Shown in pieces: positions 28,245 through 42,276 of a stretch of DNA of 64,000 nt. The DNA lies in contig NZ_AKIV01000065.1 in assembly GCF_000282655.1 (NCBI RefSeq), positions 1 to 64,000 on the forward strand, read 5' to 3'. Source of the stretch: Polaromonas sp. CF318 (lineage in GTDB: Bacteria > Pseudomonadota > Gammaproteobacteria > Burkholderiales > Burkholderiaceae_C). Within the stretch, counting starts at the first letter, position 1, and each line of letters begins with the position of its first letter. A model generated the notes under the pieces. The model ran no database searches, was not told the origin of the DNA, and saw nothing but the letters and a program-made list of their open reading frames with translations. The translations under genes were made by a program, and so were the position numbers.

Positions 28245-28976
28245 TTACCTGCGTAGCGCGGCGAAAGCCTCAAACTCCCAGCTCCGCATGGCCAGCAACA
28301 GCGTAAAACCTTCGCGGTCTTTCTCGCCCAGCTTCTGGTCCGTCTGGTGCTGCTGGGCAAAATCCTGGGCCACGCGCTGCATGCGCTCCAGGAAGGACGG
28401 CGCCAGGCCGCGGCTGATGGAGCCGTGCACCAGCAGCAGGCCTTCGCCCTCGCCATCGAAGCCGCCGGAAAAATAGTCGAGCAAGGCGTTCTCGCGGAAA
28501 TAGTCCATCACCGGCCCATGCGGCCGCCAGCGAAAGGTCTTGGCGAGCTTGAGCCGGTAGCGGTTCAGAGGCTTGAGCTCGATGATGCCTATGCGGTCCA
28601 GCTGCGCGAGGTATTTGATGCATTCGGCCTCCGAGAGCCGGTAGCTGCTGGTGATCTGCTCCAGCGTCCATTGCGAGAGCACGCAAATCGCGGTCAGCAG
28701 CAGCTTTTTATCGGCCACCACGGCTTTTTCCTGCGCCTCGGCCAGTTCCGCCAGCAGCGGCTGGGTGTCGGCGATGCGCCTGGCGAGATCGGCAAAGTCC
28801 AGCTTGAGCGCGCGGCAGATCGCGTCTATGCGCGACAGCGGCATGTCCCCTTTGGCCAGCATGCGCTTGACGCTGGATTCGGCCATGCCCAGTTTGGCGG
28901 CCAGGTCCGCATACGTCATGCGCGCGGCCTTGAGTTCTTTTTTGAGGACGGTGACGAGGTCGGCGGTGGTGCTCAT
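28245..28976 (-). CDS. XRE-family (Cro/CI-type HTH) transcriptional regulator
   Basis: The 243-residue protein has an N-terminal Cro/CI helix-turn-helix (about 6–62, with MTYADLAAKLGMAESSVKRML). The C-terminal region of about 170 residues has no cupin or peptidase motif and may be a second winged-helix-like or ligand-binding region (WTLEQITSSYRLSEAECIKYL). It is divergent from the CREST operon. The 21-bp dyad shared by three promoters of this region ends one base before its start codon, making it a candidate regulator of that set and of itself. This is inference. Confidence 0.82.
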   Translation of the reverse strand: MSTTADLVTVLKKELKAARMTYADLAAKLGMAESSVKRMLAKGDMPLSRIDAICRALKLDFADLARRIADTQPLLAELAEAQEKAVVADKKLLLTAICVLSQWTLEQITSSYRLSEAECIKYLAQLDRIGIIELKPLNRYRLKLAKTFRWRPHGPVMDYFRENALLDYFSGGFDGEGEGLLLVHGSISRGLAPSFLERMQRVAQDFAQQHQTDQKLGEKDREGFTLLLAMRSWEFEAFAALRR

Positions 28977-29059
28977 GGGTATCGATTATCGGTACTTTGG
29001 GTTTGAAGTGTCTCCACCGCACTGAATTTTGATGCCTGCGGCCCATCCCGCCCCGCACA
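28977..29059 (+). promoter_or_regulatory. Regulatory region P1 of the CREST operon (dyad plus CCGCACA box)
   Basis: A dyad-like site GGTATC-N7-GGTACT lies at 28978–28996, one mismatch per half relative to the two perfect copies at 36694 and 40828. CCGCACA follows at 29053–29059, beginning 58 bases after the end of the right half-site core. CCGCAC-A-GTGCGG at 29053–29065 is itself palindromic. The first gene of the operon starts 38 bases after the box. Confidence 0.6.
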
Positions 29060-29097
29060 GTGCGGCTCACTCATATATAGACAGAGGAGCTTTCCAC

Positions 29098-30009
29098 ATG
29101 CAGACCACCCCCTCCATTCTTCACCGCCGGGTCGCGCCTCTCCCCTGGCACGCGCGGCCGGCTGCCCTGGCCTGGCGCCGTGAGTGTGTGCTGGCCCTTG
29201 TCTTCCTGCTGTTGCTGGCGGCCGCGCTGCTGGGGCCTCCGGTGGCGCAGCCCGCCCACTACCACGACTTCGCCGACCAGCGCAGCTGGGGCTGGCTGCC
29301 GCACGCGATGGACGTCACCAGCAACCTGCCCTTCGCGCTGTGGGGCATGGTCGGCCTCTGGGCGCTGCTGCGGGCCATTCGTGAGCAGGCCGTCAGCGCC
29401 ACGGCGGCGGCCATGGCCGGGCTTTTCTTCGGCGGGCTGTGGGTGACGGCGGCGGTGTCCGCGGCCTACCACCTGCAGCCCGGCGATGCCGGCCTGGCCT
29501 GGGACCGCGGCGGCATGGTGTTGGCCTTTGCCGGCTTGCTGGGTCTGGCGGCGATGCGGGCCGTCAGCACGCGCGCCGGGATGGCGCTGGCCACCGCCGT
29601 GCTGGTGCTGGGGCCGCTTTCCGTCTATGCCTGGTCGCTGGGCGGCAATGTGCTGCCCTGGGCGGTGCTGCAGGGAGGGGGCATGGCGCTGATCCTGGGC
29701 TTTGCCTGCCTGCGTCCCGCCCAGGCCTGGGAGCTGCCGGTGCGCTGGGGTCTGGTGACTGCCATCTATGCGCTGGCCAAGCTGCTGGAACTGGGTGACC
29801 ACGCGGTCTACGAGTGGACCGGCCAGCTGGTGTCGGGCCACAGCCTCAAACACATGGTGGCTGCCTGCGCCGCCTGGCCCGTGGTGTCGGCGCTGCTGGC
29901 CGCGCGAAAAATCAGGGCAGAATCCCATGCACCATTCAAAAACAGAGCCGGCCAGTCGCTCAGGCGCGAAGCCCGTCGCACAACAATCAAAACGAGGAGT
30001 CACGCATGA
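29098..30009 (+). CDS. CREST-superfamily (alkaline ceramidase-like) membrane protein
   Basis: The 303-residue polytopic protein has about seven membrane helices. It shows the polar signature of CREST hydrolases: Ser121 and His125 in SAAYHLQPGD, Asp136 in LAWDR, and His248/His252 in SGHSLKH. Eukaryotic members hydrolyse ceramides and bacterial members are uncharacterised. A lipid amidase or similar activity is possible. I chose the ATG at 29098 because GAGGAG lies eight bases upstream. The C-terminal tail (after about 270) is basic. It overlaps the next gene (ATGA at 30006–30009) and heads a six-gene operon. Confidence 0.65.
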   Translation: MQTTPSILHRRVAPLPWHARPAALAWRRECVLALVFLLLLAAALLGPPVAQPAHYHDFADQRSWGWLPHAMDVTSNLPFALWGMVGLWALLRAIREQAVSATAAAMAGLFFGGLWVTAAVSAAYHLQPGDAGLAWDRGGMVLAFAGLLGLAAMRAVSTRAGMALATAVLVLGPLSVYAWSLGGNVLPWAVLQGGGMALILGFACLRPAQAWELPVRWGLVTAIYALAKLLELGDHAVYEWTGQLVSGHSLKHMVAACAAWPVVSALLAARKIRAESHAPFKNRAGQSLRREARRTTIKTRSHA

Positions 30010-31964
30010 GTGTTGATAAGGCCACGCCGGTGTCGCCGCCGCCTGTCCAGGGGCATCCGAACCAGTTCGCGCTGCTCAAGCAGCGCCGCTTCGCGCCTTT
30101 TTTCTGGACGCAGTTTTCCGGCGCGGCCAACGACAACCTCTTCAAGTTCGCCTTCACCGTGATGGTGACCTACCAGCTCAGTGTGAGCTGGCTGCCCCCG
30201 GCGCTGGCCGGGCTGGCCATAGGCGCGCTGTTCATCCTGCCCTTCCTGCTGTTCTCGGCCACCAGCGGGCAACTCACCGACAAGTTCGAAAAAACCCGGG
30301 TGATCCGTTTCGTCAAGAACCTCGAAGTCGTGATCATGCTGATCGCGGCCGTCGGTTTCATGAGCGGCAACGCCAATGTCCAGGTGCCGGTGCTGCTGGG
30401 CTGCACCTTTCTGATGGGCCTGCATTCCACCATCTTCGGCCCGGTCAAGTTCGCCTACCTGCCGCAGGCGCTCAACGAGCGCGAACTCACGGGCGGCAAC
30501 GGCATGGTCGAGATGGGCACTTTTGTGGCCATCCTGCTGGGCCAGGTTGTGGGCGGGCTGATGGTGGCCGTGCCGCAGGTCGGGCCCGACTATGTGGCCA
30601 TGGCCTGCGTGGGCCTGGCCCTGGTGGGCCGGCTGGTTTCGCAGTTCATTCCGCTCACGCCGGCGACCGACCCGGGCCTGAAGATCAACTGGAACCCGGT
30701 GACGGAAACCTGGCGCAACCTCAAGCTCGCCAGCGACAACCTGGTGGTGTTCCGCTCCATGCTGGGCATCAGCTGGATGTGGTTCTTCGGCGCCGTGTTC
30801 CTGAGCCAGTTCCCGAGTTTTGCCAAGGAAGTGCTGCACGGCAACGAGCAGGTGGCGTCCCTGCTGCTGGTGGTGTTTTCCGTCGGCATCGCGACCGGCT
30901 CGCTGCTCTGCGAGGTGCTCAGCAAGCGCCACGTGGAGATCGGCCTGGTGCCGGTGGGCGCCATCGGCATGAGCGTGTTCGCGGTGGACCTGTATTTCGC
31001 CTCGCGCGGCCTGCCTGCCGTGCCCATCATGAGCGTGGGCGAGTTCATGGCGCAGCATGCCCACTGGCGCGTGATGATTGACCTGGCGCTGCTGAGCCTG
31101 TTCGCGGGCCTGTACAGCGTGCCCATGTATGCCCTGATCCAGCTGCGCAGCCAGCCCACGCACCGGGCCCGCATCATCGCGGCCAACAACATTCTGAACG
31201 CGCTGTTCATGATCGTCAGCGCCATCCTGGCCGGCGCCCTGCTCAAGGCCGGCTTCAGCATTCCGCAGATATTCCTCTTCGTGGGCCTGGCCAATGCGGT
31301 GGTGGCCTTCTACATCTTCATGCTGGTGCCCGAGTACCTGCTGCGCTTTATCGCGCTGATCGCCTCGCGCCTGGTCTACCGTTTCAAGATCAGCGGCGAC
31401 GACCACATCCCGGCGCAGGGCGCGGCCGTGCTGACCTGCAACCATGTGAGTTTTGTCGACCCGGTGCTGCTGATGGCCGCCAGCCCGCGTCCCATCTACT
31501 TCGTGATGGACCACCGCATCTTCAAAATGCCGGTGCTGGGCTGGCTGTTCCGCCTGGCCAAGGCCATCCCCATCGCGCCGCGCACGGAAGACCCAGCGCT
31601 CTACGAAGCGGCCTTCGAGGCGGCCGCCAAGGTGCTGCGGGACGGCGACCTGCTGGCCATTTTCCCGGAAGGCGGCATCACCAAGAACGGCGAACTCCAG
31701 GCCTTCAAGGGCGGCGTCATGAAGATCCTGGAAAACGCGGAGCGCGACGGCCTGCAGGTGCCCGTCGTGCCCATGGCGCTCACCAACCTCTGGGGATCGT
31801 TTTTCAGCCGCGTCGAAAGCGGGACCGCGATGAGCAAGCCTTTTCGCCGGGGGTTTTTCAACCGGGTGGGGCTTAACGTAGGCGCCCCTCTGGCGGCTGA
31901 AAAGGTGGCGCCCGCGGACCTGCAGGTCCGGGTGGCACAACTTCTGCAACAGGGAAACACATGA
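30006..31964 (+). CDS. LplT-like MFS transporter fused to PlsC-type acyltransferase
   Basis: The 652-residue fusion has an N-terminal major-facilitator domain (about 25–435) resembling the lysophospholipid flippase LplT. The C-terminal 1-acylglycerol-3-phosphate acyltransferase domain (about 450–645) has the catalytic motif NHVSFVD at residues 479–485 and the substrate motif FPEGG at 553–557. Together they could import lysophospholipid across the inner membrane and re-acylate it. Unlike E. coli Aas, no acyl-ACP synthetase domain follows, so an acyl donor must come from elsewhere. GAGGAG precedes the ATG. It overlaps both neighbours by four bases. Confidence 0.85.
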   Translation: MSVDKATPVSPPPVQGHPNQFALLKQRRFAPFFWTQFSGAANDNLFKFAFTVMVTYQLSVSWLPPALAGLAIGALFILPFLLFSATSGQLTDKFEKTRVIRFVKNLEVVIMLIAAVGFMSGNANVQVPVLLGCTFLMGLHSTIFGPVKFAYLPQALNERELTGGNGMVEMGTFVAILLGQVVGGLMVAVPQVGPDYVAMACVGLALVGRLVSQFIPLTPATDPGLKINWNPVTETWRNLKLASDNLVVFRSMLGISWMWFFGAVFLSQFPSFAKEVLHGNEQVASLLLVVFSVGIATGSLLCEVLSKRHVEIGLVPVGAIGMSVFAVDLYFASRGLPAVPIMSVGEFMAQHAHWRVMIDLALLSLFAGLYSVPMYALIQLRSQPTHRARIIAANNILNALFMIVSAILAGALLKAGFSIPQIFLFVGLANAVVAFYIFMLVPEYLLRFIALIASRLVYRFKISGDDHIPAQGAAVLTCNHVSFVDPVLLMAASPRPIYFVMDHRIFKMPVLGWLFRLAKAIPIAPRTEDPALYEAAFEAAAKVLRDGDLLAIFPEGGITKNGELQAFKGGVMKILENAERDGLQVPVVPMALTNLWGSFFSRVESGTAMSKPFRRGFFNRVGLNVGAPLAAEKVAPADLQVRVAQLLQQGNT

Positions 31965-32317
31965 AATCACTTCAATTCTTCAAGGCCGGGGGGCGTTTGT
32001 CGCGCGGTGGCTTCTGGCTTCATGGCCTCATCGTCTGGGGAGTGTTCTACCTGGTCTGGGCTGCGCTCGGAAATTCATCGTCCGACATCCTGACCTGGGT
32101 GATCAACCTGCCGGTGCTGGCGGCGCTGGTGCTGATCTGCATCCGGCGCCTGCATGACCGGAACTACTCCGGCTGGTGGCTGTTGCTGGCCGCCGTCCCC
32201 GTGCTCGGGGCGCTCTGGCTGGTCTGGCAGCTGGCGCTCAGGCGCGGCGTCGCCGATGGCAACCAATGGGGCCCGGATCCCCTGCAGGCGCGCGGCGACT
32301 ACCTCGTGGTGCGCTAG
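31961..32317 (+). CDS. DUF805 membrane protein
   Basis: This 118-residue inner-membrane protein has three to four hydrophobic segments and the DUF805 signature: GRLSRGGFWLH at the start, IRRLHDRNYSGWWLLL in the middle, and a terminal GxNQWGPDP. Its function is unknown. It overlaps the stop of the LplT–PlsC gene (ATGA at 31961–31964) and precedes the FAD–methyltransferase gene by 23 bases. It is therefore part of the lipid-type operon. Confidence 0.85.
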   Translation: MKSLQFFKAGGRLSRGGFWLHGLIVWGVFYLVWAALGNSSSDILTWVINLPVLAALVLICIRRLHDRNYSGWWLLLAAVPVLGALWLVWQLALRRGVADGNQWGPDPLQARGDYLVVR

Positions 32318-32340
32318 GGTTCAAAAAAAGGGAGCGAGGG

Positions 32341-34614
32341 ATGCAGCAAAACACATTGATCGTCAACGACGTCACCGGTTTGAACCCGGTGGCGGTCTGG
32401 GCCATCAGCAAGCCAAAAACCGTGGCCGACGTGGCTGATGCCATCCGCCGCACCGACGGGCCGGTTTCCGTGGGCGGCGGGCATTTCAGCATGGGCGGCC
32501 AGACCGCCAGCCCGGGCAGCCTGCACCTGGACATGCGGGACATGAACCAGGTGATGGCCTTCTTTCCGCAGGACAAGGTCATTCGTGTGCAGGCCGGCAT
32601 ACGCTGGTGCGATATCCAGCGCTTCGTCGATCCGCACGGCCTGGCCGTCAAGATCATGCAGACCTATGCCAACTTCACGGTGGGCGGCGCGCTGAGCGTC
32701 AACTGCCACGGCCGCTACATGGGGCTGGGGCCGGTGGTGCTGTCGGTGCGCGCGATCAAGGTCGTGCTGGCCGACGGCAGCGTGCAGGAAGCTTCTCCGG
32801 CCGCGAATGCGGAGCTGTTTTACGCGGTGATAGGCGGCTATGGCGGCGTGGCGGTGATCGTCGAGGCGGAACTGAGCCTGGCGGACAACGTCAAGGTCAA
32901 GCGTCTGGCGCGCAAGATGAGCGCCGCGGAATACATCAGCCATTTCAAGGCCAAGGTCCGGTATTTCCAGGACGCCGTTTTCCACAATGCCGACCTGTAC
33001 CCGCCGCATTACCGCAAGGTCCGCTCGGTGACCTGGGCGCGCACCGACGAGGCGACGACCGAGCCGCGGCGCCTGCAGCAGGGCGGCCAGAGCTATCCGC
33101 TGAACCGCTACTTCGTCTGGGCGGTGACGGAGACCCCGCTGGGGAAATGGCGCCGCGAGTACCTGATCGACCCGCTGCTCTATAGGTTCCGCAAGGTGCA
33201 CTGGCGCAATTTCGAAGCCGGTTACGACGTGGCGGAACTCGAACCCGCTTCGCGCAAGCACACCACCTATGTGTTGCAGGAGTACTTCATCCCGGTGGAA
33301 CGCTTCGACGATTTTGTGCCCAGGATGGCGGAGATCCTGCAGCGCCACAAGGTCAACGCGCTCAACGTGTCGGTGCGCCACGCGCAGCAGGACCCGGGCA
33401 CCCTGCTGGCCTGGTCCCGAGGGGAGACCTTCGCCTTTGTGCTGTATTACAAGCAGCGCACGCGCGACAACGCGATCAACCGCGTGTCGGTCTGGACGCG
33501 CGAACTCATAGACGCGGCCATCAGCGCGGGTGGCAGTTACTACCTGCCCTATCAGCCGCACGCCACGGCCCGGCAGTTTCACGCGGCTTACCCGAGGGCC
33601 CAGGAGCTGTTCGCGATGAAGCGGCGGCTTGACCCGCAGTTCAGGTTCCGCAACGTGCTGTGGGACACGTATTACGCTCCCACGCTTGCCGCATCCCCCC
33701 ATCCCGCTCATCCCGCCACTTCGATTGATGCCATGGACAACACCAAACCCGCTTCGGAATTCAGGGCCGTTTTTTCCGACGTCGGCTGGCGTGACGGTTT
33801 TTACAAGTTCCTGCAAAACATCTACCGGCTTTATCCCGAAGACCGCTTCCATACGCTGATCAAGAGCACTTCGGCGGAGCTTGACGACGACGAGGCGATT
33901 TACCGCCGGCTGCAGCGCGAGCTGCCGAAGATCAAGCCCCTGCTGGCCGACCTGACGCATGCGCTGCCCGCGCTCTTCAAGCAGAAAAAGGAGATGGCCG
34001 ACCAGACCCTGCGCCTGCTGGAGGGCAGAAAACGCATCGACGGTTATGTCGAGATCGGCTCGACGGGCCGCTACATCAGCGAGCTGCGCAAGCGCGTGGA
34101 CGTCACTGGCCCCATCACCCTCGTCAACGACCTGGCGCCGACGAATTCGCCGGTCGATATCGCGGAGCGCGGCGGCCTGCGGAAAATCGGCGGCTTTGTG
34201 CCCATGGGCGACTACGATCCGCTGCCCGCCTCCATGCCTGACGCCAGCGCGGACCTGGTGACCTGCTACATCGGCCTGCACCACTGCCCGCTGGACAAGC
34301 TCGACAGTTTTGTCGCTTCCATCATGAGGGTGCTCAAACCGGGCGGCACCTTCATCCTGCGCGACCACGACGTCACGACGCCTGAAATGCACACCTTTGT
34401 GTCGCTGGTGCACGCCGTCTTTAACGCCGGCCTGAACGTGGCCTGGGAAAGCAACCAGCGCGAACTGCGCCATTTCAGGCCCGTCGCGCATTGGGTGACC
34501 TACCTGGGCGAGCGCGGGCTCAGCGATACGGGCAAGCGGGAACTGCAGGCCCATGATCCTTCCGACAATGTCTTGCTGGCCTTCACCAAGGCCGGCGCGC
34601 GGGTGCCGGCATGA
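32341..34614 (+). CDS. FAD-binding oxidase fused to SAM-dependent methyltransferase
   Basis: The 757-residue fusion has residues about 15–450 as a VAO/PCMH-type flavoprotein, with VSVGGGHFSMGGQ at 42–54 and a C-terminal block ending in RLDPQFRFRNVLWDTYY. A Pro/His/Ala-rich linker (about 449–463) leads into a class I methyltransferase region (about 480–750). That region has motif I EIGSTGRYIS near 571 and the later block IGLHHCPLD...RVLKPGGTFILRDHD. An in-frame ATG at codon 465 sits at the junction, so the gene may have arisen by fusing two genes. GGGAG precedes the ATG at 32341. The substrate is unknown; the operon suggests a lipid. Confidence 0.8.
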   Translation: MQQNTLIVNDVTGLNPVAVWAISKPKTVADVADAIRRTDGPVSVGGGHFSMGGQTASPGSLHLDMRDMNQVMAFFPQDKVIRVQAGIRWCDIQRFVDPHGLAVKIMQTYANFTVGGALSVNCHGRYMGLGPVVLSVRAIKVVLADGSVQEASPAANAELFYAVIGGYGGVAVIVEAELSLADNVKVKRLARKMSAAEYISHFKAKVRYFQDAVFHNADLYPPHYRKVRSVTWARTDEATTEPRRLQQGGQSYPLNRYFVWAVTETPLGKWRREYLIDPLLYRFRKVHWRNFEAGYDVAELEPASRKHTTYVLQEYFIPVERFDDFVPRMAEILQRHKVNALNVSVRHAQQDPGTLLAWSRGETFAFVLYYKQRTRDNAINRVSVWTRELIDAAISAGGSYYLPYQPHATARQFHAAYPRAQELFAMKRRLDPQFRFRNVLWDTYYAPTLAASPHPAHPATSIDAMDNTKPASEFRAVFSDVGWRDGFYKFLQNIYRLYPEDRFHTLIKSTSAELDDDEAIYRRLQRELPKIKPLLADLTHALPALFKQKKEMADQTLRLLEGRKRIDGYVEIGSTGRYISELRKRVDVTGPITLVNDLAPTNSPVDIAERGGLRKIGGFVPMGDYDPLPASMPDASADLVTCYIGLHHCPLDKLDSFVASIMRVLKPGGTFILRDHDVTTPEMHTFVSLVHAVFNAGLNVAWESNQRELRHFRPVAHWVTYLGERGLSDTGKRELQAHDPSDNVLLAFTKAGARVPA

Positions 34615-35657
34615 TGCGCGGCATCCGCCGGATGGGCGCTGTGGGCGCGCTTGTCGCGGGGCTTTTTTTGGCATGCGGCATCGCCGCGGCGCCCGCCAGG
34701 CCCGTGGCGAGCGCCGAGCATGTGCGCGGCGTGGAGCAAACGCTGCTGACCTACCCCGAATGGTTCCTGGTGTTCAGCCCCTATGAATACGGTGAGTTCA
34801 TCGCCGCGAACGCACCCAGCCGCTTCCCCTACTACGGGCACATCGCGCAGTTCTGGGAAAGCTACAAGGCGGTGTTTGACGAGACGCGCCGGCGTGCCCT
34901 GGACCTCAATGCCGGCTACCACCTCATGATCATGGTGATAGGCACCAGCACGAGCGTGGAATATGCCTTGAAGTCCGCCTACGAAACTTTGATCGGCCGC
35001 CTTGCCGAGTCGACGGCCGGCCACCCGACGCCGGAAGACCGGCATGCCGCGGCCGTGGCGCAAGACTATGTGCGTTTCATCCGCGTGCAGCCCTGGTACG
35101 AGTACGACTTCGGCAAGGCGATGGCCGGCCTCTGGCAGGGCGTTCCCGCGACCGGCCCCGACATGCTTCGCAAGTGGGAGCGGCGCTTTGCCCTCACGAC
35201 CGAATATGCCGTCAAGATGGCCTACGCCAGGCTGATCAAGTTGGGCACCAAGTCCATTTACGATGCGCCCTTGCCGGTGACGGCCGTGGTGGCCAGGCCC
35301 GCGCCCGCGGCGGATGCGGCCCTGCCTGAGCTCAAGCTGCTGCAGCCCCTGCCGGACGGCGCCGCGCTGGTCACCATTCCGCGCTACGAAGCCTTTATGA
35401 CGTATGCGCAGGCGCTGGCCGGGCAGGGTGTCAACTTCAGCGAAATCGCCGGCAACGATTCCTTCATCCTGGTCAGCGTGCTCGCGCCGGGCGCATGGAA
35501 GCCCGAAAGCCCCGCTGCGGCGCTGCTGGTGCAGCCCATACTCACACAGCCGGGCACCCAGCGCGTGGTGATGACGCTGCCCGTGGCCCACCTGGCCGAG
35601 GCCTTGCGGCAGTGGAAAACGGCGAAGCTGCAAGTCGAGCATGTCTTTGACTACTAG
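34611..35657 (+). CDS. Exported protein of unknown function
   Basis: This 348-residue protein has an N-terminal signal peptide or signal anchor (about 5–27, ending GIAAA). Conserved-looking features include TLLTYPEWFLVFSPYEYGEF (about 44–63), FPYYGHIAQFWESYKAVFDE, and a Trp/Tyr-rich stretch VQPWYEYDFGKAMAGLW. I recognise no catalytic motif. Its ATG overlaps the stop of the oxidase–methyltransferase (ATGA at 34611–34614), and its end overlaps the alpha/beta hydrolase start by 17 bases. It is thus firmly embedded in the operon. Confidence 0.75.
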   Translation: MMRGIRRMGAVGALVAGLFLACGIAAAPARPVASAEHVRGVEQTLLTYPEWFLVFSPYEYGEFIAANAPSRFPYYGHIAQFWESYKAVFDETRRRALDLNAGYHLMIMVIGTSTSVEYALKSAYETLIGRLAESTAGHPTPEDRHAAAVAQDYVRFIRVQPWYEYDFGKAMAGLWQGVPATGPDMLRKWERRFALTTEYAVKMAYARLIKLGTKSIYDAPLPVTAVVARPAPAADAALPELKLLQPLPDGAALVTIPRYEAFMTYAQALAGQGVNFSEIAGNDSFILVSVLAPGAWKPESPAAALLVQPILTQPGTQRVVMTLPVAHLAEALRQWKTAKLQVEHVFDY

Positions 35658-36684
35658 GCCCGGAGCAAAGCGGGCGCCGGCGCCACGCCGTCCCGCGCGC
35701 GGCTGGCCGTCTGTTGCGCTGCGGCTTGTCGGCGCCGCCTTGCTGTGCCTGCTTTTGCTGCTGGGGCTGTCATGGGTGCGCATGCTGTGGGTTGAGGACC
35801 GCAGCCCGCGCCAGGCCGCACCGGCGCAGGGGCGTTGGCTGCATGCGCATGATGTCGAGCTCTACGTGCAGGAGTTCGGCGACCCGGCCGCGCCGCCGCT
35901 GCTGTTGACCCACGGTACAGGCGCCTGGAGCGGCACCTGGGACCAGAACGTGCAGGCCATGGCTGCCGCCGGCTACCGCGTCATCGCGGTCGACCTGCCG
36001 CCTTTCGGCTTCAGCACGCGGCCCGCTTCGCGCGACTACAGCCGCGCCGCGCAGGCGCGCCGCATTGTCGGCCTGATTGATGCGCTGAAGCTCGGCCCGG
36101 TGACGCTGCTGGGTCATTCCTATGGCGGCGGGCCCGCTGCCGAAGCCGCCATGCTGCAGCCGGATCGCGTGCGTCGCCTCATCCTCGTCGACGCGGCGAT
36201 CGGCCTGAGGGAAAATCCCGCGCCGGCGGAAAACGGCGGCGTGGCGGCCGGCCTCTTCGGCGTTCGTCCGCTGCGCACGGCGCTTATCGCCACGGTAGGC
36301 ACCCAGCCGCTGTTCAGCGAGTTCTGGCTGCGCAAGTTCGTGGCCCGCAAGGAAGTCGTCACGCCTTCGCGCACGGCGATTTACCGCCAGCCTTTTGTGC
36401 TGCATGGCTTTACCGAAAGCCTGGGCGACTGGGCGGTGCAGTTTGCCGGCGAAAGCGGCCAGTCCCTGAGCGAAAGGCCTGAGGCTTATCGCAAGCTGTC
36501 CGTGCCGCTCACGCTGGTCTGGGGACAGGAGGACACCATCACACCCCTGTCCCAGGCGCAGGCCCTGCAGCGGCTGGCTGCCGGGTCAAGCTTGCTGGTT
36601 CTGCCGGGCGTCGGACATATCCCGCAAATCGAGGATCCGGCCCTGTTCAATTCGCGAATGGCCGAGCTGTTGAAGCAACCCTAG
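35641..36684 (+). CDS. Membrane-anchored alpha/beta hydrolase
   Basis: The 347-residue protein has a basic N-terminus, one membrane helix (about 27–47) and then an alpha/beta-hydrolase domain. The oxyanion region is HGTGAWSGTW, the nucleophile elbow GHSYGG (Ser near 159), the acid Asp in GQEDTITP and the base His in GVGHIPQIE. It would face the periplasm, tethered to the inner membrane. Esterase or lipase activity fits the operon, but the substrate is unknown. It is the last gene of the operon beginning at 29098, and the stop is followed by the P2 region. Confidence 0.85.
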   Translation: MSLTTRPGAKRAPAPRRPARGWPSVALRLVGAALLCLLLLLGLSWVRMLWVEDRSPRQAAPAQGRWLHAHDVELYVQEFGDPAAPPLLLTHGTGAWSGTWDQNVQAMAAAGYRVIAVDLPPFGFSTRPASRDYSRAAQARRIVGLIDALKLGPVTLLGHSYGGGPAAEAAMLQPDRVRRLILVDAAIGLRENPAPAENGGVAAGLFGVRPLRTALIATVGTQPLFSEFWLRKFVARKEVVTPSRTAIYRQPFVLHGFTESLGDWAVQFAGESGQSLSERPEAYRKLSVPLTLVWGQEDTITPLSQAQALQRLAAGSSLLVLPGVGHIPQIEDPALFNSRMAELLKQP

Positions 36685-36693
36685 CCAGGTGTT

Positions 36694-36775
36694 GAGTATC
36701 AAGATTCGATACTCCCGAGCCATTTTTTAAGGACTGTATTGCCATCTGCATGATTTCCGGGGCGCCGGCCGCACA
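36694..36775 (+). promoter_or_regulatory. Regulatory region P2 upstream of yiaAB-like gene
   Basis: GAGTATC-N7-GATACTC (36694–36714) is a perfect 7-bp-arm dyad lying ten bases after the alpha/beta-hydrolase stop. CCGCACA (36769–36775) starts 57 bases after the right GATAC core. The same arrangement is seen at 40828–40909, and with mismatches at 28977–29059. Confidence 0.65.
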
Positions 36776-36806
36776 GTCGGGGCACCTCAACAACCGCAAG
36801 GTTTTT

Positions 36807-37271
36807 ATGCAGACGCTGATACACCGTGACTCCAAACCCTGGCAACTGCAGGTCTGGGCTTCCTTCCTGATCGCCGTTTTTCTCTGCGCCGTGGGCTTGT
36901 CCTGGCTGCCCGGCAGGGACCTGGACCGCGCGTTCATGGTCATGGGTTATTTCTTCTGCCTGTCGGCGGCTTTTGTGCTGGCCAAGTATGTGCGTGACCA
37001 GCAGCAAAGCAGGGCCGAAGGCAAGCTGGCCGACACGCCCATGTTCAGGCTGGTGGTATGGGGCGGCTTCTTCCTGGCCATGTCGCTGACCGGCTGGGGC
37101 TTGTGGCGCATGGAGATCAACGAAACCTACAAGGCTTTCCTGGGCGTGAGCTGGCTCTACCTGATCACCTGCAGCTTCACGCTGGCCAAGACGCTGCGCG
37201 ACAGCCATGAAGCCGACCTCAGCGAAGCCCGCATGGGCCGCGCCGCCCGCAATCACGCGGCCAACGAATAA
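36807..37271 (+). CDS. YiaA/YiaB-family inner membrane protein
   Basis: The 154-residue protein consists of two copies of a two-helix hairpin (helices near 15–35, 42–60, 85–103 and 110–130). Each copy has a W..F..A/G pattern typical of YiaAB domains. The C-terminus is charged and cytoplasmic. The function is unknown; the E. coli homologues have been linked only loosely to stress. I use the ATG at 36807, with AAGG upstream, rather than an in-frame ATG at 36750 that lies before the CCGCACA box. It heads a four-gene unit. Confidence 0.78.
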   Translation: MQTLIHRDSKPWQLQVWASFLIAVFLCAVGLSWLPGRDLDRAFMVMGYFFCLSAAFVLAKYVRDQQQSRAEGKLADTPMFRLVVWGGFFLAMSLTGWGLWRMEINETYKAFLGVSWLYLITCSFTLAKTLRDSHEADLSEARMGRAARNHAANE

Positions 37272-37300
37272 GCACCGCACACACATACCAAGGAAACATC

Positions 37301-37756
37301 ATGAAGAATCGACTTTCTGCTTACCTTGCCGCTGTTTGCATCACCCTGGCGGGAAGCGCCGCGTTCAACGCGCAAGCCCAGTCGGAAGCCTCGGCCTTGA
37401 GCGCCGTGTCGGCCTTGCCGGTGGCTTCCGTGGTGGTCGGCGCCAGCGCCACCGCGAGTGCCGTGCTGGCCATTCCCGTGGTGTTGTCCACGGCGGGCAC
37501 CGTGCTGGTGGTCAAGACCGTCGAGAGCACGGCCCGCGGAACGCTGTATGTGCTGGAGCGCGCCTCGGACGGCGCCCGCGCCAGTATCGAGGTGGTGGGC
37601 CGGGGTGTTGCCGGCGTGTCCATGGTGGCCGGGACGGCCGTGGTCGTCAGCGTGGTGGGCGCGGGTGTGGTGCTGTCGGCGGCCGGGGAGGCGATTGCCT
37701 TTATCCCCAATGCGCTGGGCCGTGCCCTGCTGCACAACGAACGCCTGACCCCCTAA
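37301..37756 (+). CDS. Small exported Ala/Val-rich protein, unknown
   Basis: The 151-residue protein has a clear Sec signal peptide (about 1–27, cleavage after AQA). An extremely Ala/Val/Ser/Gly-rich body follows, with two hydrophobic stretches (about 40–75 and 100–135) around a central more polar segment, ARGTLYVLERASDGARASIEV. It could be a periplasmic or membrane-associated structural protein. I do not recognise the family. AAGGAAA precedes the ATG. It lies 29 bases after the yiaAB-like gene and 13 bases before the DUF2145 gene. Confidence 0.7.
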   Translation: MKNRLSAYLAAVCITLAGSAAFNAQAQSEASALSAVSALPVASVVVGASATASAVLAIPVVLSTAGTVLVVKTVESTARGTLYVLERASDGARASIEVVGRGVAGVSMVAGTAVVVSVVGAGVVLSAAGEAIAFIPNALGRALLHNERLTP

Positions 37757-37769
37757 GCCGGAGCCATCC

Positions 37770-38582
37770 ATGAAAATCCCGAGAGTCTTCTTGCCGCTGG
37801 TGCTGGCCGTCGCCGTCCTCGGCACGGCGCCGGCTGTCCATGCCGGGCGTTCCTGCGAAGCGCACAAGACCACACCGCAGACCGTGGAGCGCGCCATGGT
37901 GCTGGCTGAAAAGACGCTGGCCTCGCTCAACGCCAGTGGCGAGAAAGTCGTGCTGCTGGCGCGGGCCGGCCAGGATCTCAGCAAATACGGTGTGCGCTAT
38001 TCGCACCTGGGCCTGGCCTACCAGGTGCCCGACGGGCAGGGCGGCATGACCTGGCGCGTGGTGCACAAGCTCAACGGCTGCGGCACCAGCGAGTCGGCGT
38101 TGTACCGCCAGGGGCTGGGCGAATTCTTTCTTGATGATTTGTGGCGCTTCGAAGCGGCCTGGGTCGCGCCGTCGCGCGAAGCCCAGGACCAGCTGCTGGC
38201 GCTGCTGCAGGATCCGGCCCGGCTCACCGCCATGCACCACAAGCCCTACAGCATCGTCAGTTATGCCTGGGGCCGCAAATACCAGCAGTCCAACCAGTGG
38301 GCCATTGAAACCCTGGCCGCCGCCGTGGAGCCCGGCATCACCACGCGCGAGAAAGCGCAGGCCTGGCTGCAGTTCAAGGGCTACGAACCCACGGCGCTCA
38401 AGCTGGGCCCCCTGACCCGGCTGGGCGGCCGCATGACGGCGGCTAACGTCGCATTCGACGACCACCCCAACGACAAGCGCTTTTCCGACCGGATCGAAAC
38501 CGTCACGGTCGACTCGGTCTTCGCCTGGCTGCAAAGGGCCCGCATGACGGACGGCAAGCCTATGGCGGTCGTCAGGCTGTGA
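37770..38582 (+). CDS. DUF2145 family exported protein
   Basis: The 270-residue protein has a signal peptide (about 1–25, ending VHA). The body matches the DUF2145 layout, with GRSCEAHKTTP, VRYSHLGLAYQ, NGCGTSESALYRQGLGEFF, YSIVSYAWGRKYQQSNQW and a C-terminal DDHPNDKRF. Conserved His, Cys and Asn resemble an NlpC/P60-like arrangement, but I cannot confirm a catalytic site. Function unknown. GGAG precedes the ATG. It is the third gene of the unit beginning at 36807. Confidence 0.78.
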   Translation: MKIPRVFLPLVLAVAVLGTAPAVHAGRSCEAHKTTPQTVERAMVLAEKTLASLNASGEKVVLLARAGQDLSKYGVRYSHLGLAYQVPDGQGGMTWRVVHKLNGCGTSESALYRQGLGEFFLDDLWRFEAAWVAPSREAQDQLLALLQDPARLTAMHHKPYSIVSYAWGRKYQQSNQWAIETLAAAVEPGITTREKAQAWLQFKGYEPTALKLGPLTRLGGRMTAANVAFDDHPNDKRFSDRIETVTVDSVFAWLQRARMTDGKPMAVVRL

Positions 38583-38619
38583 GCGATGTATTTGTGACGT
38601 TCAAAAACTGGAGATAAGC

Positions 38620-39702
38620 ATGGCCAATACCTTGCGATTGACGGAAAAATGGATGCACCGCGGCCTTTGGCTGGTGGCTTTTGTGTTCGCCGGCTTCCTG
38701 ATCGGACTGGGCGGCACTGTGGTGGGCGACCTGCCCAAAGTCGAGAAACAGCTGTCGCTCGACGACTTCATGGATGCGAACGCCGCCACCGCGCTGCGCA
38801 ACGCCATCAAGGCCGCCGAGCGCGCAGGGCAGGACGCCCAGATTGCGCTGGAGCAAGCCCAGCTCAAGCGCCGTGCCGCCCAGGCCGATTCTGCCGCGGC
38901 GCGCGAGACCTTTAACAACTGGCTGTCCACGCGGCATGCCACGCAGCTGGCCGAGCAGGACCCAGAGCTGGTCTCGCGCACGCGGGCGCTGGACGCGCTC
39001 AAGGAGCGCGAACGCGCGGCCGGTACGGCCGTCGAGGCCCAGCAGCAGGCCGCGCTCGATGCGCGCCAGGGCGCCGCGCGCGAACGCCGCAAGCTCCGCG
39101 AGATGGAAGAGGCCGCGCAGGTGCAGCTCAATGCCGAATACCGGCGTGTGGAACTGCGCGTCTTTTTATACCGCCTGGCCCTGACGCTTCCGCTGCTGAT
39201 GGCGGCCGGCTGGCTGTTCGCGAAAAAACGCAAAAGCACTTACTGGCCTTTTGTCTGGGGCTTTATCTTCTTCGCCCTGTTCGCATTTTTCGTCGAGCTG
39301 GTGCCCTACCTGCCCAGCTACGGCGGTTATGTGCGCTACATCGTGGGCATTGTTGTCACGGCGCTGGTCGGCCGGCAGGCCATCATCGCGCTGAACCGCT
39401 ACCTCGAAAAGCAGAAACTGGCCGAGCAACTTCCCGACGCGCAGCGCCGCGAGGAGCTGAGCTACGACACGGCGCTCAAGCGCCTGTCAAAAAGCGTGTG
39501 CCCCGGTTGCGAGCGGGCCGTGGACCTCAAGAACGCGGAGATCGATTTCTGCCCGCATTGCGGCATAGGCTTGTTTGACCATTGCTTCAAGTGCACGACG
39601 CGCAAGAGCGCCTTCGCCAGGTTCTGCCATGCCTGCGGCACCACGGCCGACAAGAAACTCCAGTTGCCGCGGGACGGTGCCGACAGGGTGCCGACGCTCT
39701 AG
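38620..39702 (+). CDS. Coiled-coil membrane protein with C-terminal double zinc ribbon
   Basis: The 360-residue protein has an N-terminal membrane helix (about 12–35) and then a long Ala/Glu/Arg-rich coiled coil (about 55–180). A cluster of three membrane helices follows (about 188–265). The C-terminal cytosolic region has four CxxC pairs (CPGC, CPHC, CFKC, CHAC) between about 290 and 345, forming a double zinc ribbon. Such proteins may act as scaffolds. I know of no characterised homologue. GGAGAT precedes the ATG. It ends the yiaAB–DUF2145 unit. Confidence 0.7.
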   Translation: MANTLRLTEKWMHRGLWLVAFVFAGFLIGLGGTVVGDLPKVEKQLSLDDFMDANAATALRNAIKAAERAGQDAQIALEQAQLKRRAAQADSAAARETFNNWLSTRHATQLAEQDPELVSRTRALDALKERERAAGTAVEAQQQAALDARQGAARERRKLREMEEAAQVQLNAEYRRVELRVFLYRLALTLPLLMAAGWLFAKKRKSTYWPFVWGFIFFALFAFFVELVPYLPSYGGYVRYIVGIVVTALVGRQAIIALNRYLEKQKLAEQLPDAQRREELSYDTALKRLSKSVCPGCERAVDLKNAEIDFCPHCGIGLFDHCFKCTTRKSAFARFCHACGTTADKKLQLPRDGADRVPTL

Positions 39703-39711
39703 GCGGCGCGT

Positions 39712-40719
39712 TTAAACCGGGCGGCCGAAGAAGGGATAGCCCGGGTCGTTGTAGCCGTGGCTGGACGCATGGCCGGGCACCACCAGCTCGTTGACGAAAG
39801 CCTCGTCGTCCTTGTCCAGCACCAGGTCCACTGCGCCGTACACGTCTTCCAGGTGCGGCAGGGTGCGTGGGCCCACGATGACCGAGCTGACCAGCGGGTT
39901 GGCCAGCACCCAAGCCGCGGCGAACTGGCCGGGCACCTGGCCTTTGCCTTCGCAGCGGGCCTTGATTTTTTGCGCGATCAGCAGTGACTCCTCGCGGAAC
40001 TCGGTTTCCAGGATGCGTTTGTCGCCGCTGCCGGCGCGCGTGCCTTCGGCCGGCGGCTGGCCGGGCGGGTATTTTCCGGTGAGCACGCCGCGCGCCAGCG
40101 GGCTGTAGGGCACCACGCCCAGGCCGTAATGGCCGCAGGCCGGCAGGATTTCGACTTCCGGGCCGCGATTGAGCAGGTTGTAATAAGGCTGGCACACGAC
40201 GGGTTGCGGCACACCCAGTTCCTTGCACAGCCGCACCACCTCGGCGATGCGCCAGCCGCGGAAGTTGGAGAGGCCAAAGCTGCGCAGCTTGCCGGCGCGT
40301 ATCAAATCGCCCAGCGCGCGCACCGCTTCCTCGAGGTTTTCCTCGTGGTAGTCCCGGTGCAGGTAGAGGATGTCCAGGTAGTCGGTCTGCAGCCGCGCGA
40401 GGATGGCGTCGGTCTGCTGGATCAGCCAGCGGCGCGAGTAATGGCTTTCATTGATGTTGTCGCTGACCGCATTGCCCAGCTTGCTGGCCAGTACCCAGTG
40501 CTGCCGCTGGCCGGCAAGCAGCTTGCCTACGTCTTTCTCGGACTGGCCCTGGTTGTAGACGTCGGCGGTGTCGATGAAGTTGAGGCCGTGCTCGCGGGCC
40601 GAGGCCACGATGCGGGCCGCTTCCTCAAAAGGCGTCTGCTTGCCGAACATCATGGTGCCCAGGCACAGGACGGAGACTTTGAGGTTGCTGTTTCCAAGGC
40701 GGCGGTATTGCATGGTCAT
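39712..40719 (-). CDS. Aldo/keto reductase
   Basis: This NADPH-dependent oxidoreductase of the AKR superfamily is about 335 residues with a (beta/alpha)8 barrel. Landmarks are the N-terminal MQYRRLGNSNLKVSVLCLGTM, catalytic Asp and Tyr in FIDTADVYNQGQSE, Lys in WVLASKLGN and His in YLHRDYHEE. The first ATG at 40719 and a second at 40713 are both possible; no clear ribosome-binding site separates them. It is convergent with the zinc-ribbon gene and divergent from the lipoprotein gene, so it might share the P3 regulatory region. The substrate is unknown. Confidence 0.87.
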   Translation of the reverse strand: MTMQYRRLGNSNLKVSVLCLGTMMFGKQTPFEEAARIVASAREHGLNFIDTADVYNQGQSEKDVGKLLAGQRQHWVLASKLGNAVSDNINESHYSRRWLIQQTDAILARLQTDYLDILYLHRDYHEENLEEAVRALGDLIRAGKLRSFGLSNFRGWRIAEVVRLCKELGVPQPVVCQPYYNLLNRGPEVEILPACGHYGLGVVPYSPLARGVLTGKYPPGQPPAEGTRAGSGDKRILETEFREESLLIAQKIKARCEGKGQVPGQFAAAWVLANPLVSSVIVGPRTLPHLEDVYGAVDLVLDKDDEAFVNELVVPGHASSHGYNDPGYPFFGRPV

Positions 40720-40827
40720 CTTTGCGGCAAAAAACAATGAAGGGGAAGGGCTTGATGTTGCCTCAGCCTGTTGTATTGCGCTGGGCATCGGTTATTTCGC
40801 GGATGGCTGGCATCCTGAATTTCGGTG

Positions 40828-40909
40828 AAGTATCTAATTTTGATACTTTCCGTATACATGGGATGATCTTGTATCTTTAAATGCAACCTTTTGAACGCCC
40901 CGCCGCACA
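40828..40909. promoter_or_regulatory. Regulatory region P3 upstream of small lipoprotein gene
   Basis: AAGTATC-N7-GATACTT (40828–40848) is a perfect 7-bp-arm dyad in an AT-rich stretch. CCGCACA (40903–40909) begins 57 bases after its GATAC core, the same spacing as in P2. The site lies between the divergent aldo/keto reductase and the lipoprotein gene and could affect both. Confidence 0.65.
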
Positions 40910-40948
40910 CTGCGCCCACAAGCATGTGCTTGGGCCTTCGGGTTATTT

Positions 40949-41431
40949 ATGAAGATCGTTTCTTCCTTGTTCTCCCTGTCACGCCTCTCACGGTTGTCTC
41001 GCCGCACGGCCCTGGCCGCCGCGGTGCTGGGCGCCACGGCCCTGACGGGCTGCTACGTTGTGCCGGTCCAGCCTAATCATCCGCCGGTCACTTCCACGGT
41101 CTACGTCACGCCGGCCGTCCCGGCCAGCACGACGTTTGCGGCGCGGCTGTACCCGGCCAACGACCTGGCCCGTGGCTACGGCATGGTGGGCGCGGTGGTG
41201 ACCAATGACATGAACGGGCGCGGGACTTTCACCACCAACATCAATGGCGAGAGCTTTACCGGGGAGGCCACGCGCATCGCGGGCTCATCGACGCGAGAAG
41301 GCGTGGCCAACGGCTCGGGCAGCCGGGGCAACTACATCAGCTGCCGCTACCAGATGAACTCGTCCACGCTAGGCACCGGGCAGTGCAGGCTGTCCAACGG
41401 CGCCGAGTTCACCATGCATGTGGGTGGCTGA
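40949..41431 (+). CDS. Small lipoprotein of unknown function
   Basis: The 160-residue protein has a long basic signal sequence and the lipobox LTGC (Cys near 35). A short Pro/Val/Thr-rich linker follows, then a beta-rich Gly/Asn/Thr/Ser-rich C-terminal domain (about 65–160). That domain has paired Cys (ISCRYQ, GQCRLS) that could form a disulfide. The function is unknown. No strong ribosome-binding site precedes the ATG. It shares the dyad/CCGCACA promoter architecture with the two larger operons to its left, so it is likely part of the same response. Confidence 0.7.
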   Translation: MKIVSSLFSLSRLSRLSRRTALAAAVLGATALTGCYVVPVQPNHPPVTSTVYVTPAVPASTTFAARLYPANDLARGYGMVGAVVTNDMNGRGTFTTNINGESFTGEATRIAGSSTREGVANGSGSRGNYISCRYQMNSSTLGTGQCRLSNGAEFTMHVGG

Positions 41432-41440
41432 AAGCGCGGG

Positions 41441-42229
41441 CTAGCGTTCCAGCTGCTCCGCAGCCACCATCTGCGGGGCCGCCTTGAGGTGGCCCACATA
41501 CCGCAGCGGCTTGTGAATCATGACGGAGGGCACGTCGCCCTCCCTCATGTGCAGCAGGTCGCCGGGGTTGATCAGGCGCGGGTCGGCGTCGGTGAGCGGC
41601 AGGCCCGCGCTGCGGTAGGCCTCCAGGATGAACTGCGAGCAGAAGAACTGGTCGTTGCGCCCCAGGCCCAGCTGCACGGCCGCGATGCCGCGTATGCAGA
41701 AGTCCCGCACCATGGACGGCACCAGCGGCAGTTCGCACATGCGCCGCTCCAGCGCGAAGGGGGCCTGCAGCATCACACCGACGTAGTTGTATTTCTTGCC
41801 TTCGTGGCTGGCCACAAAGGTGTTGATCTTCACGGCCTGCCCCGCCGTGAGGTCGGGGTGGCGAAAAGCCACCACCGTCGCTTCATCTTCGAGCATCGCG
41901 TCCACGCTGCGGATGCGTATGCCCGAACCCACGGCTTCGGCGATCTGCCGGTTGCCCATGTAGACCGCGGCATGGCTCACCGGCGACAGCGTGATCAGGC
42001 GTATGCCGACCGAGTTCAGGCCGTTTTCAGCCGTGAGGATGATGTCGCCCGGACGCAGCGTGTCGGCGGTGACCAGCTCCCCGCCGTTGCCCGGGTTGAG
42101 CGCCATGCTCTGGAAACCCAATGTGGGTGCGCCGCTGGTTTCATGCGGCTTGATGGCCGTGGCGCAACCGCCCAGCGCCAGCATGGCCGCCAGGGCCAAC
42201 ATCCCTGCAAATCTGGTGAATCGGAGCAT
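41441..42229 (-). CDS. Permuted NlpC/P60-like (YiiX/YaeF-type) lipoprotein
   Basis: The 262-residue protein has a lipobox LGGC (Cys22). A circularly permuted papain-like domain follows, with the catalytic His86 in SPVSHAAVYMG and nucleophile Cys197 in FFCSQFILEAY. Homologues of this fold cleave amide or ester bonds in peptidoglycan or lipids. GAGGAAA precedes the ATG at 42229. A longer frame running upstream crosses the glycosyltransferase gene out of phase and is not real. It lies 47 bases downstream of the GT39 gene and is convergent with the small lipoprotein gene. Confidence 0.8.
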   Translation of the reverse strand: MLRFTRFAGMLALAAMLALGGCATAIKPHETSGAPTLGFQSMALNPGNGGELVTADTLRPGDIILTAENGLNSVGIRLITLSPVSHAAVYMGNRQIAEAVGSGIRIRSVDAMLEDEATVVAFRHPDLTAGQAVKINTFVASHEGKKYNYVGVMLQAPFALERRMCELPLVPSMVRDFCIRGIAAVQLGLGRNDQFFCSQFILEAYRSAGLPLTDADPRLINPGDLLHMREGDVPSVMIHKPLRYVGHLKAAPQMVAAEQLER

Positions 42230-42276
42230 GGCGTTTCCTCGTTGTTGTTTGTTTGCAGGGACGGAGCAGCATGGGA

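Follow-up and report, generated by a model that had tools for sequence, protein, structure and literature searches.

A candidate XRE-controlled three-operator promoter shared by membrane-related genes in Polaromonas sp. CF318

In a stretch of 64,000 nucleotides (nt) from Polaromonas sp. CF318 (contig NZ_AKIV01000065.1, positions 1 to 64,000; the whole stretch is called the window), three promoters share a palindrome and a downstream box at a nearly fixed distance. We think it probable that these are the activator-dependent promoters of a small regulon run by an XRE-type regulator encoded beside the first of them, and that this protein binds three operators (O1, O2 and O3) and represses its own gene. 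A dimer of the regulator would bind the palindrome O1 (GTATC-N7-GATAC) near -81, would cooperatively fill the weaker copies at about -59 (O2) and -41 (O3) and, from O3, the usual class II position, would recruit RNA polymerase to a promoter lacking a -35 box. The -10 of these targets, [C/G]A[C/G]A[C/A]T, would be weak, with A(-11), A(-9) and T(-7) retained and T(-12) lost. Binding would thus switch on a unit of a ceramidase-like and an MFS-acyltransferase gene (unit 1), a yiaA-DUF2145-zinc-ribbon unit and a lipoprotein gene. At the XRE end, O1 would overlie the regulator's own -10 and start, and the same binding would therefore repress XRE. Many related genera have the pairing next to one regulator gene, and the system looks like a real gene switch for membrane-related genes, so far unnamed.

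The palindromes can be read directly in the window as GAGTATC-N7-GATACTC (36694-36714), AAGTATC-N7-GATACTT (40828-40848) and a degenerate copy, GGTATC-N7-GGTACT (28978-28996). CCGCACA starts at 36769, 40903 and 29053, that is, 57, 57 and 58 nt past the end of the right core. A first-pass annotation of this DNA had given all of these positions and spacings exactly. The 7-mer that it singled out is correctly placed but makes up only the first part of a longer element, conserved as xACAxTGCGC; the box scores of the three window sites are 10.5, 8.5 and 11. Its picture of three units filling one contiguous 12-kb block also needs amendment. An aldo/keto reductase gene inside the block (39712-40788, minus strand) is opposed to the three promoters and unserved, and the third copy serves a lipoprotein gene (40949-41431) that falls beyond the block as it had been delimited. 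The regulator gene and the promoter elements are as follows.

28245..28976, minus strand: XRE regulator gene, 243 residues; N-terminal Cro/C1-type helix-turn-helix (HTH_26, PF13443) with a predicted winged helix behind it (structure model)
28979..28995: O1 of unit 1, GTATC-N7-GGTAC, separated by 2 nt from the start codon of XRE
Within 28979..28995, minus strand: candidate XRE -10, GATAAT in the N7 of unit 1 O1, 8 nt upstream of the XRE ATG
29001..29017: O2 position of unit 1, degenerate, with GT...AC retained; read by register (centre distance 22)
29019..29035: O3 of unit 1, GCACTGAATTTTGATGC, centre near -41; score 4.8, start +24
29056..29061, plus strand: -10-like CACAGT of unit 1, inside CCGCACAGTGCGG
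36696..36712: O1 of the yiaA unit
36718..36734: O2 position of the yiaA unit, very degenerate, the AC end alone kept; read by register
36736..36752: O3 position of the yiaA unit, GTATTGCCATCTGCATG; read by register, not among the sites scoring above 4
36772..36777, plus strand: -10-like CACAGT of the yiaA unit
40830..40846: O1 of the lipoprotein unit
40852..40868: O2 position of the lipoprotein unit, GTATACATGGGATGATC; read by register
40871..40887: O3 of the lipoprotein unit, GTATCTTTAAATGCAAC; score 8.5, start +25
40906..40911, plus strand: -10-like CACACT of the lipoprotein unit, inside CCGCACACTGCGC

The combination is rare in its own genome (5,008,816 bases in 159 contigs). Exact GTATC-N7-GATAC occurs there three times, twice within the window, and 20 places match it with at most one mismatch. 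The 17 such dyads outside the window were each read on both strands with a box threshold of 8.0, and none has a CACA-type box; within this search a correctly placed box of that type occurs only at the three window sites, with two borderline cases elsewhere. A larger regulon in this genome was therefore rejected for dyads of up to one mismatch, the range that was searched.

Comparison with related genomes establishes the operators, the box, their fixed spacing, their conservation and their linkage to XRE. The regulator has a match in 111 of 200 genomes of the family, and neighbourhoods of about 3-17 kb were taken for 60 of the 110 other matching genomes. The MFS-acyltransferase gene is present in 55 of them, DUF2145 in 35, yiaA in 34 and the gene for the ceramidase-like protein in 31; each points away from XRE. 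With a dyad called at 8 or more of the 10 core letters, 53 of 61 sequences (the 60 neighbourhoods and the window) have an XRE-side dyad, and the best box lies 59-62 nt past it in 41 of the 53. Nine loci left out of that count gave a dyad in eight and a box at 59-61 in seven. An independent set of named records keeps a dyad of at least 8 at 74 of 79 usable loci. There, the best CACAnTGCGC-like box, sought at offsets 0-99 with ties broken at random, falls at 58-62 nt in 68 of the 74, against a mean of 3.8 and a maximum of 11 for shuffled flanks. Composite sites (dyad at least 9, box at least 8) number 49 over the 1.02 Mb of the 60 neighbourhoods and the window; seven wrong spacings on the same DNA yielded 5, 2, 4, 0, 3, 3 and 2. 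Among 399 family genomes, an exact composite pattern matched 10 times, in 9 genomes, every time at the start of one of these genes: the XRE-side unit 1 (8), yiaA (1) and the lipoprotein gene of our strain (1). Its reversal has no match. Another exact pattern matched 3 of 200 genomes (our own, G003 and G178), all with an XRE match, and its control matched none. Both exact patterns, being strict, miss most true sites. A chance resemblance or a dispersed repeat, which the presence of just three copies in the window would allow, is rejected by these contrasts (49 composites versus 0-5, 10 exact matches versus 0, and 68 of 74 versus 3.8). With the wrong-spacing, reversed-pattern and shuffle controls all low and the pair conserved at orthologues, we assign it a negligible probability.

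The pair extends beyond close relatives. More distant XRE regions of the family (L161-L165) include three with a dyad of 8-10 and a box at 59-60, one without, and a split gene whose start is uncertain (L163). Order-wide, 40 of 150 genomes have an XRE match, and 11 loci from other families of the order have a dyad of at least 8 in eight cases and a box at 59-61 in five (L258, L261, L263, L264 and L266, at 64, 43, 42, 44 and 41% identity). No dyad is present at L260, L267 or L268, and the dyads of L259, L262 and L265 have their best box elsewhere.

The promoters also accompany yiaA when it lies apart from XRE. A dyad of at least 8 stands upstream of 28 of 30 yiaA orthologues, the window included, in a set for which the box was sought at 57-63 only; 32 of 35 yiaA promoters have a dyad when the dyad is chosen alone. 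Eight genomes carry yiaA on a different contig from XRE or more than 500 kb from it, and six of them (G132, G015, G113, G079, G194 and G136) keep a dyad of at least 8; the other two score 6 (G109) and 7 (G140, with a perfect box). Five weak YiaAB relatives have no dyad above 7, although one, L160, has a good box alone. At L049, the ceramidase-like, MFS-acyltransferase and yiaA genes are dispersed, apart from XRE and from one another, and each has its own composite promoter. Further, a strong yiaA is present in 74 of the 200 family genomes, and 73 of those also have a strong XRE (40 expected; P 8e-26, from counts made by eye and taking no account of phylogeny).

Given its adjacency to the first promoter, this co-occurrence and the promoters that follow the targets away from it at L049, we regard XRE as the probable regulator, and an XRE-run regulon as well supported by sequence comparison; the XRE protein is likely the binder of the dyad. 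These results bear out the first-pass annotation in its view that the dyad-box pairing is not accidental, that one regulator and one promoter type serve the three units (the pair being kept at XRE and yiaA orthologues and, in 5 of 11 loci, in other families) and that XRE is a candidate. Neither of the outcomes that it had named as contradicting it, a random scatter of the pair over the genome or its lack at orthologous promoters, was observed. A different, unlinked regulator might instead bind the dyad, XRE being a passenger target. XRE does carry the dyad at its own start, as a target would, and G040 (74% complete) has a yiaA with a good dyad (locus L153) and no XRE that we could find; its XRE is perhaps on a missing contig, and otherwise this is an orphan operator. 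However, the dyad stays beside XRE orthologues throughout the family and at 8 of 11 loci in other families, and 73 of the 74 strong yiaA genes come with XRE. We thus hold a passenger XRE to be quite improbable.

Many yiaA leaders (L120, L123 and L126 among them) contain a conserved ATGTTCAAC-like stretch just after the -10 box. By eye, it is in frame with the yiaA start in several genomes; the window leader has a CTCAACAAC variant near 36786 and no in-frame upstream reading frame. An initial transcribed element and a short N-terminal extension are candidate readings of this stretch.

The most plausible reading of CCGCACA is that it opens a weak -10 element, [C/G]A[C/G]A[C/A]T, which is followed by a GC-rich discriminator and lacks a -35 partner. 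Sigma-54, flagellar and heat-shock promoter types were weighed by their consensus sequences alone and set aside. In box-aligned promoters, for which the hexamer letters served as a selection criterion, A, A and T of xACAxT are near-invariant and are followed by G-C-G and then by C and A at the expected start. Over the unselected offsets 60-68 of the 74 named loci, the peak letters are C-A-C-A-C-T-G-C-G, and the A(-11) and T(-7) of a putative -10 are present in the box. C and then A occupy the expected -1 and +1 in 32 and 22 of 43 promoters with a gap of 60. No clear -35 was detected in 75 promoters, the TTGACA-like match at 16-18 bp averaging 2.44 of 6 versus 2.29 +-0.09 in shuffled sequences. 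An alternative sigma factor, or a second protein bound next to XRE, could instead recognise this element. Its first base is C or G rather than T in 68 of the 75 promoters (the selection score gave C/G a small bonus), and its TGCGC continuation is conserved, GC-rich and, in some copies, partly palindromic (29053-29065 in the window). Yet A(-11), A(-9) and T(-7) persist, the expected start has its C/A, start codons lie at leader distance, and no further strong element occupies a -35-like place; such recognition is, in our estimation, unlikely. We do not favour CCGCACA as an independent operator either, since it is xACAxTGCGC that is conserved, and the first letters vary.

If the box is taken as a -10, O1 is centred near -81 and the degenerate copies near -59 and -41. 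When the spacer of the 75 promoters was scored with an O1 matrix, positions 22 and 40 bp from O1, centre to centre, stood out (z 4.2 and 2.4). A second operator scoring above 4 occurs in 11 of the 75, versus 0.9 in shuffled sequences, at distances from O1 of 40-41 (9), 22 (1) and 52 (1). The O3 signal, which would lie near the class II position of -41.5, is clear in 9 of the 75, and in the window the unit 1 and lipoprotein copies of O3 exceed 4.

On the XRE side, 20 of the 74 named loci resemble the window in having 2 nt between O1 and the XRE ATG. The N7 begins with GATTAT in 17 of these 20 loci, versus 17 of the 54 others, and reads ATAATC towards XRE; in the 20, resemblance to a TATAAT hexamer is at its peak 8 nt ahead of the start codon. 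A Shine-Dalgarno 4-mer is found in none of the 20, in 5 of 26 loci with O1 offsets of 3-15 and in 15 of 28 with offsets of 16 or more. Because the 20 loci are related, they stand for fewer than 20 events. This arrangement suggests that the XRE message is leaderless, that its -10 would be covered when O1 is bound and that XRE would repress its own gene.

The XRE protein is conserved along its 243 residues in orthologues and is identical over that length to a protein of Polaromonas sp. JS666. It matches PF13443 with 44.9 bits (cut-off 22; E 1.4e-11). An AlphaFold model has a mean predicted local distance difference test score (pLDDT) of 86, and its helix-turn-helix domain (residues 1-74) superposes on 3f6w (Z 11.8, root-mean-square deviation (rmsd) 1.9, 73 aligned) and on 3ufd, C.Esp1396I (Z 10.6, rmsd 2.0, 74 aligned, 15% identity); the nearest folds of the model include C.Esp1396I and ClgR. 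The whole model returned no Foldseek row below E 0.057, and a sequence search of the PDB gave a single meaningless row (E 0.34). When the C-terminal part was predicted alone (pLDDT 75), its best Foldseek rows were mostly winged-helix regulators, all weak, at E 0.19 or above.

Three known systems invite comparison. Like the XRE protein, restriction-modification controller (C) proteins of the C.Esp1396I type have a Cro/CI-type helix-turn-helix. C proteins are autoregulated, cooperative at tandem operators and able both to activate and to repress. They are small proteins of about 80 residues with a single helix-turn-helix, whereas the XRE protein has about 170 residues more, with a predicted winged helix; the sequence and layout of their operators are unlike O1/O2/O3. 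No restriction-modification gene was found among 20 scanned window proteins, the other genomes having been compared for window genes only. The control region of lambda-CI type likewise has several operators between divergent genes, and in both one site should repress one promoter and support a second. In contrast, the XRE protein has no CI-type cleavage/oligomerisation domain among its Pfam matches, and it would serve several promoters, some of them distant. Finally, class I and class II activator-dependent promoters resemble the present ones in a putative site near -41, the lack of a clear -35 and a weak -10, but here the best-conserved site is near -81, with an intermediate one near -59.

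A further question is whether XRE activates or represses its targets. The same regulon could operate with the opposite sign, XRE repressing all three units by blocking RNA polymerase at -35 from O1 and O3 until a signal releases it. This is possible but distinctly less probable than activation. The Cro/CI-type fold and the near folds C.Esp1396I and ClgR are in keeping with it, and O3 overlaps the -35 region. However, the strongest operator lies upstream near -81, at a near-invariant 59-62 nt from the box, and a simple repressor needs no such arrangement. The absence of a clear -35, and usually of T at -12, makes the promoter alone look too weak to need repression. We prefer activation, because the main operator is upstream at a fixed phase and the core promoter looks defective.

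Several further observations, besides the G040 orphan, weigh against an XRE-activated regulon as we have drawn it. Cro/CI-type regulators are better known as repressors, and the O3 position would equally suit a repressor. O2 and O3 are degenerate: 64 of the 75 promoters have no second site above 4, and when the scan is anchored on the box their positions reach z of only 2.1 and 2.0, behind the position at the box itself. The -35 test lies about 1.7 standard deviations above the shuffles. The XRE-side dyad is absent from 8 of 61, 5 of 79 and 1 of 9 loci in the three sets, and XRE at L049 has no dyad at its start despite the composite promoters of its targets. With a CACA-tuned score, the best box is at 58-62 in just 19 of 32 yiaA promoters (1.6 shuffled); of the 11 listed misfits, all except L143 carry another xAxxxT hexamer (mostly CACCAT/CACGAT-like) at about 60. 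Outside the window, two of the 17 dyads, L107 (63 nt) and L110 (59 nt), reach the box score of 8.0, neither with CACA, and the rest are lower. All of these counts, moreover, overstate the number of events, because related genomes are not independent.

We also offer a broader and more tentative proposal. A Burkholderiales-wide family of regulators with a helix-turn-helix and a winged helix in tandem may read a 60-bp array of three operators (about -81, -59 and -41) as one unit and may replace both the -35 and the T(-12) of the -10. With the -10 of the regulator's own leaderless gene inside the first operator, a single DNA element would then be activator site, repressor site and promoter core. 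Full-text literature searches, whose coverage excludes most subscription papers, returned no description of the XRE regulon. The reading given here provides a regulator, an operator, a promoter and targets for the DUF2145, YiaAB, ceramidase-like and MFS-acyltransferase families, which are common in the sampled family and have no assigned role. Lipid-handling genes under common control suggest a response that maintains the membrane, and the regulon may serve the upkeep of membrane lipids and envelope. On a promoter without a -35 and with operators at a fixed phase, one could study cleanly how a Cro/CI-type protein activates transcription.

The proposed target genes in the window are listed below.

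29098..30009, plus strand: ceramidase-like membrane protein (Pfam Ceramidase match for an orthologue only, E 1.4e-4, below the cut-off)
29814..31964, plus strand: MFS + PlsC-type acyltransferase, LplT/Aas-like; the true start is probably downstream of 29814
36807..37271, plus strand: YiaAB-domain membrane protein, yiaA (PF05360, E 3.8e-30)
37770..38582, plus strand: DUF2145 protein, papain-like family (PF09916, E 1.4e-83)
38620..39702, plus strand: protein with a C-terminal double zinc ribbon (weak match, below the cut-off)
40949..41431, plus strand: putative secreted lipoprotein, 160 residues (signal and LTGC box read by eye)

The ceramidase-like and MFS-acyltransferase genes diverge from XRE, and the second promoter is followed by yiaA, an open reading frame, DUF2145 and the zinc-ribbon gene. 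The accessible text of PMC10318531 describes DUF2145 as a papain-like family in which serine replaces the active-site cysteine. The MFS and PlsC parts of the acyltransferase align to NF005291 (residues 83-697), the model of LplT-Aas fusions (acyl-ACP-phospholipid O-acyltransferase), but the score of the protein, 512 bits, is below the cut-off of 1349. The search found no AMP-binding ligase part in it, and it thus differs from three-part Aas/LplT proteins (MFS, PlsC, ligase).

Between MFS-acyltransferase and yiaA (31961-36684) lie genes for a DUF805 protein, an FAD-oxidase/methyltransferase, an unknown protein and an alpha/beta hydrolase; tblastn at 1e-6 matched none of them in the 60 related neighbourhoods. 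They are therefore probably a local insertion, and unit 1 seems to have gained them locally; their GC content is similar to that of the remainder (0.655). Directly behind the lipoprotein gene, an 808-residue protein (41441-43867, minus strand) has a weak permuted papain-like C92 (YaeF/YiiX) domain.

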